The notes under the pieces are model-generated. The model searched no databases. It was not told where the DNA came from and was given only the letters and a program-made list of their open reading frames with translations. This document shows, in pieces, positions 49,608-52,779 of a DNA stretch of 64,000 nucleotides. The stretch comes from Kribbella sp. NBC_00382 (GTDB lineage: Bacteria > Actinomycetota > Actinomycetes > Propionibacteriales > Kribbellaceae). Made by a program: the position numbers and the translations under genes. Numbering within the stretch: position 1 is the stretch's first letter; each line of letters opens with the position of its first letter. The stretch is taken from the NCBI RefSeq assembly GCF_036067295.1, contig NZ_CP107954.1, positions 7,068,001 to 7,132,000 on the forward strand, given 5' to 3'.

Positions 49608-50801
49608 ATGAATCGCAGTATCAAGCTGGCCGGCCTGGTGGCGAGCGTTTCGGTCGCGGCTGTGGTGGCGGGCATCGTGGTCGCCGCCCAGCAGACGCCG
49701 ACGCTCGCCTCGGCGTCCGGGGACGGCACGCTGAAGCCGATCGACAGCGCCACCAAGCCGGCGCCGAAACCGTCCACGACGCCGAGCCGGCCGCCCGGGA
49801 CCGCGCCGGCCACGACCGGCGGAGTCAGCTCGAGCGGACCGGTCAAGCTCACGCTCGACCTCAGCAAGCTCAAGCAGGGCGCGGCACCGGCCGGGTCGTA
49901 CGTCGACGGCCGGACGGTCCATGTCGGAGGCAACAAGTTCACCCTGCCGGCCACCGACGGCCCGGTCTGGGATGTTGCGCGGACAAGTACCGGCGCACTC
50001 GTTCTGCACCGGCCGACGGAGAACGGCAACGCCGTGCTCACCACCTGGACCAACGGCTCCCGCGGTGAATCCGTCAAGGACGTCTCGACGGTTCTCTCCT
50101 CGGCCGACCGGTCGAGCAGCGCGTACGCCGTTCAGCCGACCAACGCCGACGGCACCGAGCTTCCGCGCTTCACGCTGGTCTGGCGCGACAACCCCAGCGG
50201 CGAGAAGTACACGCTGCAGCGCAATGGCGAGTACGGACCGATCGTGCTCGCCGTCCAGGGCAGCGAGGTCTACTTCAGCGCGTCGAACAAGAGCGAGAAG
50301 CAGACCCTCTACAAGTGGACCGCCGGCGACGACGCGCCGAAACCGATCAGCGCCGTACCGGCCCCGTCCGCGGTCTCGTCGAATCTCGAACTCGCGGCGT
50401 CGATCGTCTCGACCACCGACGACGGCAGCTGCACCGCACTGATCGAGGTCGCCGCGGCCACGAAGCGCTGGAAGACCTGCGACTATGCGGTGGACGAGCT
50501 CTTCGCCGGGAGTGCCTACGCGCTCGGTGGACCGGCCTATCGGGACGGGTACGGCGACGGCCTGTTCGCCGCGCTGGACCTGAAGACCGGCAAGACCGTG
50601 CACGAGTGGTCCGGTGCGAACGCGGTCGCGATCATCTCCACCGCGATGGAGGACGCCGACCACATCCTGGTGCTGGCCGAGCAAGGCGGCAAGACCGCCA
50701 TCGCCCGGTGCGACGCGAAGAGCGGCGCCTGTGAACTGGCCGCGCCCTTGAAGAAGGGCACCGGCGACGAGGACAACCGGCCGTACCAGCTAGGCCACTG
50801 A
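49608..50801 (+). CDS. Secreted or membrane-anchored propeller-like protein
   Basis: A 397-residue protein not assigned to a named family. An N-terminal hydrophobic helix (LVASVSVAAVVAGIVVAA, about 10-27) is followed by a Pro/Thr/Ser/Ala-rich spacer to about 75 and a beta-rich domain. Repeating strand patterns such as GPVWDVARTSTGALVLH and GLFAALDLKTGKTVHEW suggest a TolB/PQQ-like propeller. Cys residues near the end (CTALIEVAAATKRWKTC; CDAKSGAC) could form disulfides outside the cell. It is convergent with the Ser/Thr kinase 13 bases away, and may belong to the same signalling locus. Confidence 0.72.
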   Translation: MNRSIKLAGLVASVSVAAVVAGIVVAAQQTPTLASASGDGTLKPIDSATKPAPKPSTTPSRPPGTAPATTGGVSSSGPVKLTLDLSKLKQGAAPAGSYVDGRTVHVGGNKFTLPATDGPVWDVARTSTGALVLHRPTENGNAVLTTWTNGSRGESVKDVSTVLSSADRSSSAYAVQPTNADGTELPRFTLVWRDNPSGEKYTLQRNGEYGPIVLAVQGSEVYFSASNKSEKQTLYKWTAGDDAPKPISAVPAPSAVSSNLELAASIVSTTDDGSCTALIEVAAATKRWKTCDYAVDELFAGSAYALGGPAYRDGYGDGLFAALDLKTGKTVHEWSGANAVAIISTAMEDADHILVLAEQGGKTAIARCDAKSGACELAAPLKKGTGDEDNRPYQLGH

Positions 50802-50813
50802 CACCGAACCCCC

Positions 50814-52184
50814 TTATTTCTTGGGCGTATAGGCCAGCGAGTCGAGCACTCGCTCGGCCTGTACGCCGTCCTCGGCCCGCACCTGGATCCGGATCAACTG
50901 GCCGTCGATCTGCTGCACCCGTTCGTAGGTCGTCATGCCGGCCGGACAGCCGACGTACTTGGCCGTCGCCGTGAACGGCTTGTCGACCCGCTCGGCCGAC
51001 TCCGCGCAACCCACCGGGCCGGGCAAGGTGGTTGCCGCCGGCAACTCCCCCGCCGGCAGCACGCCCGCGAAGACACCCGGCACCTTCGCATCGGAGTTGC
51101 TCCAGCTGTTGTTGTCCGCACTGACCAGCAGACCGGGAAGCGAGCCCGTCGCGCCCTGTGGTTGCCAACCGTTGCCGGTCCGGGTGCGCGTCCAATCCCG
51201 AGGAAGCTCAACCGAGAGGACCTGCTGTTGATCCACGACCCGCACCCATTGCCGTTGCACGCCGTAGCTCCAGCCCAGATAACCGCCGGCACCACCGAGC
51301 AGGGCGGCCGCGACCGTCGCGGCGACCCACGGGTTCACCGAAGGACGCCAGCGCGCCGGCGCCGGGAGGCTTGCCTGCGCAGCCGTCCGCAACGCTTCGG
51401 CGAACGACCGCACGTCCGGCCAGCGCTCCTCCCGATCCTGGCGCAGCCCACGCTGGATCACCTCGTCGACCTCGACCGGTATGTCGTCGCGAACCGTCCG
51501 CAACGACGCCGGCGGCCCGTCGACGGTGAGGACCGACGCCAGCGTCGTCGCACCGTACGGCGGCTTGCCGGCCAGCGCGGCATACGTGACCGCGGCCAGC
51601 GCGTACAGGTCAGCGCGCGGGTCGAGGACATCGCCGCGCACCTGCTCGGGCGCGACGTACGCCGGGGTCCCACTCGGCATCGTCACTCGGGACACCGCCT
51701 CGAGCGACTTGCCCAGGCCCAGGTCGCCGAGCATGGCTCGCTCGCCGGTCGGCGTACTGCGGAACAGCACGTTCTCCGGCTTGACGTCCCGATGCAGGAC
51801 GCCCCGATCGTGGAGTTCCTGCAGGCCGGCGCTGACGTTGCCGATCACGTCCACCGCGTCGGCCAGCGGCAGGGGGCCGGCTTTGATCCGCTCGGCCAGC
51901 GATCCGCGGTCGGCGTAGGTCAGTACCAGGAACGGGCGGTCGTCGTCGGTGGTACCGATGTCGTGGACGCCGACGACGTACGGCGACTCGACCTTGCGCA
52001 GGAAGCGCCCCTCCTCGACGAAGCGGCGGCGGACGTCGAGATCGTCGACCCAGTGCTCCGCCAGCACCTTGACCGCGACCTCGGCGTCGAGTTCCTCGTC
52101 CCGGACCAGCCAGACGGCGGCGAAACCACCACTGCCCAGGCGCCGAATCACGGCGTACCGGCCGAAATGAGAAGGCTGAACCAT
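50814..52184 (-). CDS. Transmembrane Ser/Thr protein kinase
   Basis: A 456-residue PknB-type kinase. The cytoplasmic catalytic domain (8-265) has glycine loop LGSGGFAAVW, K39 in AVKVL, HRDVKPEN (131-138), DLG at 154-156 in place of DFG, and VAPEQ. A helix at about 285-305 crosses the membrane. The extracytoplasmic domain of about 150 residues has three or more Cys (GCAESAERV; GCPAGMTTYE) and is not a PASTA repeat. The ATG at 52184 has GATAAT 7 bases upstream, so the message looks leaderless; an ATG at 52193 is an alternative. It is divergent from an ECF sigma gene only 22 bases away. Confidence 0.92.
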   Translation of the reverse strand: MVQPSHFGRYAVIRRLGSGGFAAVWLVRDEELDAEVAVKVLAEHWVDDLDVRRRFVEEGRFLRKVESPYVVGVHDIGTTDDDRPFLVLTYADRGSLAERIKAGPLPLADAVDVIGNVSAGLQELHDRGVLHRDVKPENVLFRSTPTGERAMLGDLGLGKSLEAVSRVTMPSGTPAYVAPEQVRGDVLDPRADLYALAAVTYAALAGKPPYGATTLASVLTVDGPPASLRTVRDDIPVEVDEVIQRGLRQDREERWPDVRSFAEALRTAAQASLPAPARWRPSVNPWVAATVAAALLGGAGGYLGWSYGVQRQWVRVVDQQQVLSVELPRDWTRTRTGNGWQPQGATGSLPGLLVSADNNSWSNSDAKVPGVFAGVLPAGELPAATTLPGPVGCAESAERVDKPFTATAKYVGCPAGMTTYERVQQIDGQLIRIQVRAEDGVQAERVLDSLAYTPKK

Positions 52185-52206
52185 GCGAGTCATTATCCTC
52201 ACGCCC
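52185..52206. promoter_or_regulatory. Overlapping divergent leaderless promoters
   Basis: The 22-bp gap holds TATCCT (52194-52199, plus strand) and GATAAT (52192-52197, minus strand). Each lies exactly 7 bases before its start codon, and the two hexamers overlap by four bases. The -35 regions fall inside the opposite gene. Confidence 0.6.
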
Positions 52207-52779
52207 ATGGTCACTGACGCGGATGCGCTCGACGAACTGGCGCGGCGTGCTGCCCAGGACCCCGCGCTGCTCGACGAGTTGATCCGGCAGGTCCAGCCGC
52301 AGGTGATGCGGATCTGCCAGCGGGTGCTGCCGCATCGCGCCGACGCCGAGGACGCCTGCCAGGACGCGTTGCTGTCGATCGCCACGAAGATCGGCACCTT
52401 CTCCGGCCGGAGCCGGTTCAGCACCTGGGTGCACGTGGTCGCGTCGAACGCCGCCCGCGAGACCTACCGACGGCTCAAGCGCCGGGCCGCCGAGAACACT
52501 GATGCCTGGCAGGAGGACGATCGCCCGGCGCGATACGACCGCCCCGACCCGCGAACCACCAGCGTCGTGGCCGGCACCCGGCTCGACCTACTCGACGCGC
52601 TGGAGCAGCTGGAGATCGACCTACCCGAGACGGTCACGTCGGTGGTACTGCGCGATATCTACGAGCTCAGCTACGACGAGATCGCCGACCAGGTCGGTAT
52701 CCCCGTCGGCACTGTGAAGTCCCGCATCAGCCGCGCCCGCGCCTCGCTCAAGGCCCACCTACTCCCCCGCCAGCCCTGA
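52207..52779 (+). CDS. ECF family sigma factor
   Basis: A 190-residue extracytoplasmic-function sigma factor. Region 2 is HRADAEDACQDALLSIATKI and FSGRSRFSTWVHVVASNAARE; region 4 is LRDIYELSYDEIADQVGIPVGTVKSRISRARASLK, quoted here in parts. The ATG at 52207 is preceded by TATCCT and 7 bases, with no ribosome site. The upstream in-frame ATG at 52183 would overlap the kinase start. No anti-sigma gene follows; the divergent kinase may take that regulatory role (inference). The last 21 bases overlap the convergent gene at 52759. Confidence 0.9.
   Translation: MVTDADALDELARRAAQDPALLDELIRQVQPQVMRICQRVLPHRADAEDACQDALLSIATKIGTFSGRSRFSTWVHVVASNAARETYRRLKRRAAENTDAWQEDDRPARYDRPDPRTTSVVAGTRLDLLDALEQLEIDLPETVTSVVLRDIYELSYDEIADQVGIPVGTVKSRISRARASLKAHLLPRQP

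Follow-up and report, generated by a model that had tools for sequence, protein, structure and literature searches.

The arrangement described in this work finds its closest relatives among the bidirectional promoters characterized by Warman, Grainger and co-workers, where divergent transcription starts located 7-25 bp from each other arise from a shared, pseudo-symmetric -10 region, and no -35 element is needed. Symmetry of the -10 element is the principle behind these promoters (PMC10268837), and in their commonest form, which is usual and not obligatory, the two starts are 18 bp apart and positions -7 and -11 are reciprocally paired, spacings of 10 and 23 bp being also common (PMC12825309). 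In both reports, mapped transcript ends serve to catalogue such promoters, and the tests were made in E. coli.

Two other bodies of knowledge are relevant to this locus. The first is that of leaderless genes in Actinobacteria, whose mark is a TANNNT motif some 12 bp ahead of the start codon (PMC3160421); in S. coelicolor, where the -10 element is likewise TANNNT, leaderless transcripts make up 21% of the primary starts (PMC4895711). The second concerns ECF sigma factors encoded beside a Ser/Thr kinase gene. This is the case of ECF43, a group lacking the DAED motif in region 2.2 and exemplified by the pairs EcfP/PknT and EcfK/PknS, with linker sites T104, T106, S108 and S110 reported for EcfK (PMC13147305), and also of the kinase-linked group ECF283, represented by WP_056749340.1 from Nocardioides sp. 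Root190 (PMC8999054). In the consulted portion of the latter source, phosphorylation of ECF factors outside ECF43 is predicted from gene neighbourhood alone (PMC8999054).

In Kribbella sp. NBC_00382 (GCF_036067295.1), whose genome is a single contig of 8.49 Mb, we have analysed a window of 64,000 nt (NZ_CP107954.1, positions 7,068,001-7,132,000 of the forward strand), where a Ser/Thr kinase gene and an ECF sigma factor gene diverge from a very short gap (Table 1). A first-pass annotation of this DNA had read the gap as two interlocked -10 elements, and its geometry proved exact: 22 bp (52185-52206) separate the ATG at 52184 on the minus strand from the ATG at 52207 on the plus strand, the hexamers GATAAT and TATCCT have the four bases 52194-52197 in common, and each of them lies 7 nt from its own start codon. 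The predicted divergent starts, which are sequence predictions, would be 21 bp apart if canonical and 23 bp apart if located at the start codons, within the 7-25 bp of the definition given above. In contrast to the commonest bidirectional form, the hexamers overlap here by 4 bp in another register, and positions -7 and -11 do not coincide (52199 and 52195 for the sigma factor, 52192 and 52196 for the kinase).

Table 1. Features of the kinase-sigma locus, in window coordinates.
Feature	Position	Strand	Details
Gap between kinase and sigma start codons	52185..52206	.	22 bp
Putative kinase -10, GATAAT	52192..52197	-	7 nt from kinase ATG
Putative sigma -10, TATCCT	52194..52199	+	7 nt from sigma ATG; first T 13 nt upstream
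Ser/Thr kinase gene	50814..52184	-	456 aa, ATG at 52184; Pkinase 10-255
ECF sigma factor gene	52207..52779	+	190 aa, ATG at 52207; region 2.2 DAED motif intact
T117-T118-S119 codons (DPRTTSV, sigma2-sigma4 linker)	52555..52563	+	Position counted from start codon; candidate phosphoacceptors
Hypothetical protein gene	49608..50801	+	397 aa; convergent with kinase; third gene of conserved unit
ECF-promoter-like conserved block, GTGAACCGA...CATCAAA	49535..49564	+	Ends 43 nt 5′ of hypothetical gene

The kinase domain is recognised (Pkinase, E 4.7e-39) and is followed near residues 282-305 by a moderately hydrophobic span, whose best 19-residue mean of 1.35 falls under the usual cut-off of 1.6, and then by about 150 residues, presumed to form a domain outside the cell. 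A model of this C-terminal domain, built from 8 sequences, reached a pLDDT of 80.8 and gave weak PsbP/LpqN-like fold matches; its comparison with the PDB returned zero matches at E <= 0.001, and a Pfam search of the ectodomain gave no match. With this order of kinase domain, hydrophobic span and C-terminal residues, the earlier description of the protein as a receptor kinase is plausible.

Both messages had also been proposed to be leaderless. We examined the window and 20 further stretches of this genome, 464 kb in all, with 296 coding-like ORFs and 438 in-frame ATGs, and found that a TANNNT motif ends 6 nt before the ATG in 13 cases and 7 nt before it in 11, the sigma/kinase site itself being absent from these 24. 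The background was 46 matches over the 31 offsets from 9 to 39, or about 1.5 per offset, which makes the motif some 8 times commoner at 6-7 nt; among 655 in-frame GTGs there were 7 matches at each of the two positions. Leaderless promoters are probably in use in this genome, and the hexamer of the sigma gene, a TANNNT at close to the published distance of 12 bp, is very likely one of them even before any comparison between genomes, simple arithmetic on the enrichment giving a probability near 0.88. At the equivalent position of the kinase gene, GATAAT keeps the A and the last T, the first T being replaced; hexamers with 5 of 6 matches were scarce in the sample (1 at 6 nt and 0 at 7 nt for the 438 ATGs), too few for a test. 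Taken together, the spacing, the TANNNT peak at 6-7 nt and the conservation described below indicate that both messages are probably leaderless.

The first-pass annotation placed the -35 elements in the opposite coding regions. The location is right, yet nothing recognisable as a -35 is found there: with TTGACA at spacings of 15-19 in nine homologous loci (group A, see below), the best matches were 2/6 on the sigma side and 1-3/6 on the kinase side, no better than background, and a scan for sigma-70 promoters and terminators around the gap found neither. Among three Nocardioides loci scanned in the same search for a -35, one showed 4/6 on the kinase side at a 19-bp spacing.

As in typical leaderless genes of Actinobacteria (PMC3160421, PMC4895711), a TANNNT or, for the kinase, a TANNNT-like box stands 6-7 nt before the start, so that no leader would be expected; unlike them, the two genes share a single -10 region, and the kinase box is devoid of the first T. 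Compared with the bidirectional promoters already described, both products are protein-coding and both apparently leaderless, and one gene pair has kept the layout in two genera. Among the matches listed in a literature search that covered few subscription papers, none dealt with an interlocked promoter leaderless in both directions, or with this kinase-sigma pair in Kribbella or Nocardioides. On sequence grounds, the layout would be a variant of the known bidirectional promoters.

Across 38 Kribbella genomes the sigma factor falls into three paralogous groups, A, B and C, and the locus under study belongs to group A, which is present in 9 of them. We examined the 9 A loci together with samples of 29 B and 12 C loci, and an adjacent divergent kinase gene was found in every one. 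In all nine A loci the two hexamers are present and overlap in one and the same register, by 4 bp. Their sigma -10 reads TATSST at 7 nt from the start, varying only at positions 4 and 5 (C or G), and their kinase -10 reads (G/C)ATAAT, at 6 nt from the start in five loci and 7 nt in four. The layout is thus conserved in 9/9, and the exact length of 22 bp holds in 4 loci, the other 5 having 21 bp. Alternative upstream ATGs at 52193 and 52208 for the kinase and at 52183 for the sigma factor, in frame in the window, were discarded, since the 21-bp gap puts them out of frame in those 5 loci. A Shine-Dalgarno-like GAGGA 5′ of the kinase gene was likewise discarded, as it occurs in just 3 of the 9 loci (L001, L008 and L009) and at a long spacing.

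Within the gap, ATTAT..T is invariant in all A loci, compared with 43 of 216 fourfold-degenerate sites in both genes (15/80 in the sigma gene and 28/136 in the kinase gene). At 0.2 per site, and with sites simplified as independent, six invariant bases would be expected by chance with a probability of about 6e-5.

Group B has the kinase box in 29/29 loci, but none is interlocked by our fixed rule, and a plus-strand TANNNT in register occurs in 1/29; interlocking is therefore unnecessary for a working kinase-sigma pair. Some group B gaps (e.g., L010, L020-L023 and L025) carry a direct-repeat-like GGAGTACTGGAGTGTC beside the kinase -10, which is possibly an operator or another type of promoter. 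In group C the kinase box is found by rule in 11 of 12 loci, and 11 of 12 (L032-L043) have a plus-strand TANNNT over the kinase -10 with a 5-bp overlap, at a sigma start that is not leaderless.

Beyond this genus, a search of the order found a sigma match at E <= 1e-35 in 130 of 293 genomes, 38 of them Kribbella, and from among the matches listed we examined 80 non-Kribbella loci. A fixed rule for an adjacent divergent kinase was satisfied by 67 of these and by 117 of the 130 loci examined in and outside Kribbella, again among the matches listed, the kinase motif being scored by alignment positions. Longer stretches revealed a kinase within 2.2 kb in all 13 loci outside the rule, adjacent in L223 and L224 and in the orientation of the sigma gene in L229. 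In eight loci, mostly from Nocardioides (L222, L226, L227, L228, L230, L232, L233 and L234), the two divergent genes stand about 2 kb apart, which looks like an insertion of genes into the shared gap or a loss of genes from it.

Among the matches listed, the interlocked and doubly leaderless layout occurs in 22 of the 67 adjacent pairs outside Kribbella, all of them from Nocardioides, and 45 pairs are not interlocked. The 22 loci have gaps of 20 bp (21 loci) or 21 bp (one locus), with GTG as both starts, and their core is invariant compared with 17 of 166 fourfold sites. Together with group A this makes 31 interlocked loci, with a gap of 20-22 bp, an overlap that is always 4 bp, and a kinase hexamer whose first position is G or C, never T. 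In another 22 pairs from outside Kribbella, a TANNNT on the plus strand lies across the kinase -10 (14 in the 4-bp register and 8 in the 5-bp register) at a sigma start that is not leaderless; the 5-bp overlap of these 8 loci and of group C is a second register of the same idea. The kinase -10 is more widespread: it stands at 6-7 nt in 105 of the 117 pairs and, among the matches listed, in 56 of the 67 outside the genus, 11 being without it by rule.

In a tree of the sigma factors, group A (SH-aLRT 99) is one clade and the interlocked loci of Nocardioides (95) are another, and the interlocked label needs two changes by parsimony. This was a quick tree with SH-aLRT support only, where 49 of 110 inner branches remain open and some branches are long. 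From these sequences the kinase box is probably old, and two gains are the simplest account of the interlocking with both sides leaderless.

The wider distribution of the kinase box suggests an alternative with a single real promoter, that of the kinase; TATNNT would follow from the symmetry of its box, and transcription of the sigma gene would begin at some other place. A single instance of the interlock would indeed not be rare, because the complement of ATAAT, ATTAT, followed by one T gives TATNNT. An example of such another source, which we rank low, would be an ECF-type autoregulated sigma promoter with TGAACC inside the kinase gene: this motif extends over the kinase start in seven of the nine A loci, and the trinucleotide TCA, which begins with the last T of TATNNT, is the same in all nine and resembles the TGAACC...TCAAA of the neighbouring gene. 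However, the motif reads TGGACC in the other 2 loci, the motif and TCA stand 2-3 nt closer together than at the neighbouring gene (as counted by eye), transcription from an ECF-type promoter at this place would be expected to begin on or within the sigma start codon, and the 22 Nocardioides loci read GCAG, not CA, after the T. Moreover, all 9 A and all 22 Nocardioides loci end the sigma box with a T, even though its positions 4 and 5 vary, and we consider this alternative improbable.

A somewhat better candidate is plain compaction, with two real promoters whose overlap has no regulatory meaning, since the symmetry of the -10 alone makes bidirectional promoters common (19% of the E. coli RNAs detected; PMC12825309). 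Against it stands the 4-bp register, which by parsimony this gene pair gained on two separate occasions and then kept in each clade, and we regard compaction as possible though rather doubtful. As the layout is conserved and apparently arose twice, the shared promoter of the kinase-sigma pair is probably real.

Our preferred reading, which we consider probable, is that the gap works as a housekeeping-type bidirectional promoter in compact form, with TANNNT-like -10 elements and without a recognisable -35, from which two leaderless mRNAs are produced in alternation and kinase and sigma factor are supplied together. The complement of the kinase ATAAT would supply the TAT of the sigma box, and one T three bases further on would complete TATNNT. 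We infer that both promoters fire, and that each transcript starts at its own start codon or about one base before it. One polymerase would open the site at a time, the directions would alternate under ordinary activity, and the shared site would yield the two proteins in a more or less constant ratio, a strong induction of one direction damping the other.

The first-pass annotation went further, proposing that the two promoters cannot be open at once and that expression of the kinase and the sigma factor is mutually exclusive. A polymerase is normally gone from the promoter before the next one arrives, and a momentary occlusion thus leaves both products possible in the same cell. The first half of the claim agrees with the E. 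coli promoters, where steric constraints prevent simultaneous polymerase binding, but the second is unsupported by what is described there, since the two directions compete only under strong one-way activation (PMC12825309). A strictly exclusive switch, in which the overlap works as a built-in toggle and a cell expresses either the kinase or the sigma factor, could draw on the four -10 bases common to both genes in 31 loci, on the inability of opposing polymerases to bind together, and on the finding that a substantial activation of one direction can repress its partner. Nevertheless, according to the same source, basal transcription was insufficient for competition at all five bidirectional promoters examined there, and interference lowered the variation from cell to cell (PMC12825309). 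In an unsystematic look, we also saw no feedback element that could lock either state, and we hold the switch to be very unlikely. Co-supply is likelier than exclusion by analogy with E. coli, the organism from which the expression effects cited here come, and a kinase would be more useful together with the sigma factor that is its probable target.

A conserved motif in the sigma factor gives further weight to co-supply. The sequence DPRTTSV, in the linker between sigma2 and sigma4, is invariant in the 117 sigma factors with an adjacent divergent kinase, from among the matches listed, and in the 13 loci outside the adjacency rule. A class-level search yielded a sigma match at E <= 1e-38 in 71 of 394 genomes, and we examined 17 loci outside the order. 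Seven of them, with a divergent kinase, carry PRTTSV, and one more with a kinase carries RRTSV; in the other 9 no kinase was found within the locus, about 1.5 kb on each side. Eight of these nine read -RVS-, the ninth (L213) being unreadable, and a search of about 4 kb upstream in 7 of the 9 genomes found no kinase. Among these 7 genomes both threonines are absent from all six readable sigma factors (L241 is unreadable). Five loci from Actinoplanes/Micromonospora combine RRTSV with an opposed kinase that starts 2.4-2.6 kb downstream. In the loci examined, Thr118 appears to go with the kinase, while the kinase-less relatives may form one clade and the loss of Thr118 may be one evolutionary event. 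As judged from the aligned sequences, the pattern suggests a kinase-to-sigma pathway, where the kinase would act on the sigma factor, probably at T117/T118. Co-supply is favoured because TTS is present in 117/117 kinase-paired sigma factors and changed in 6/6 readable kinase-less ones.

This locus resembles ECF43 and ECF283 in having the ECF gene beside a Ser/Thr kinase gene (adjacent and divergent in 117 of 130 loci, from among the matches listed), and its candidate acceptors lie in the linker as do the sites reported for EcfK (PMC13147305). Unlike ECF43, the two genes are divergent on a probable shared promoter, and region 2.2 has its DAED: from among the matches listed, D46 is found in 117/117 sigma factors, E48 in 116/117 (D in the remaining one) and D or E at position 49 in 117/117. 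Since this motif is intact, the mechanism of EcfP, which restores a missing charge, is inapplicable as such.

A third gene, encoding a hypothetical protein (49608-50801), adjoins the pair in the nine group A genomes, with 68-82% identity in the other eight. Genome G028, without group A, has an 82% identical fragment of this gene at another place, and distant relatives of the protein (29-40% identity) are found across Kribbella. Six such relatives (32-37% identity) are arranged in tandem elsewhere in the same genome (G000:C1:3089117-3096104). A Pfam search with the protein gave a best E of 0.21. Upstream of the gene, GTGAACCGA is conserved in 7/7 aligned loci and CATCAAA in 5/7 (altered in L134 and L136), and the sequence further upstream is dissimilar among the seven. 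We read the block they form as a putative ECF promoter by its likeness to that of E. coli sigma-E. It is the sole exact match in the 8.49-Mb genome and the sole one below 3 mismatches, with one other place at 3 mismatches, and a backward control of the search over the whole genome gave one match too. The third gene may be a dedicated target of the sigma factor.

More tentatively still, the three genes might constitute a self-contained unit. The interlocked, doubly leaderless promoter would set the ratio of the membrane kinase to its own sigma factor, the kinase would switch the sigma factor through phosphorylation at T117/T118 of the linker, and not in region 2.2, and the sigma factor would drive one dedicated promoter, that of 49608-50801. 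Interlocking would then have arisen twice because a fixed ratio of kinase to substrate was selected.

The promoter reported here is kept by evolution for one regulatory gene pair and, by parsimony, was gained twice. Each of its directions could be silenced by changing a base outside the opposite -10, 52199 for the sigma factor and 52192 for the kinase, so the purpose of bidirectional promoters would become directly testable. For the sigma factors themselves, an invariant TTS and a promoter-like site unique in the genome would offer a concrete and testable kinase-to-sigma pathway in ECF factors beyond ECF43.
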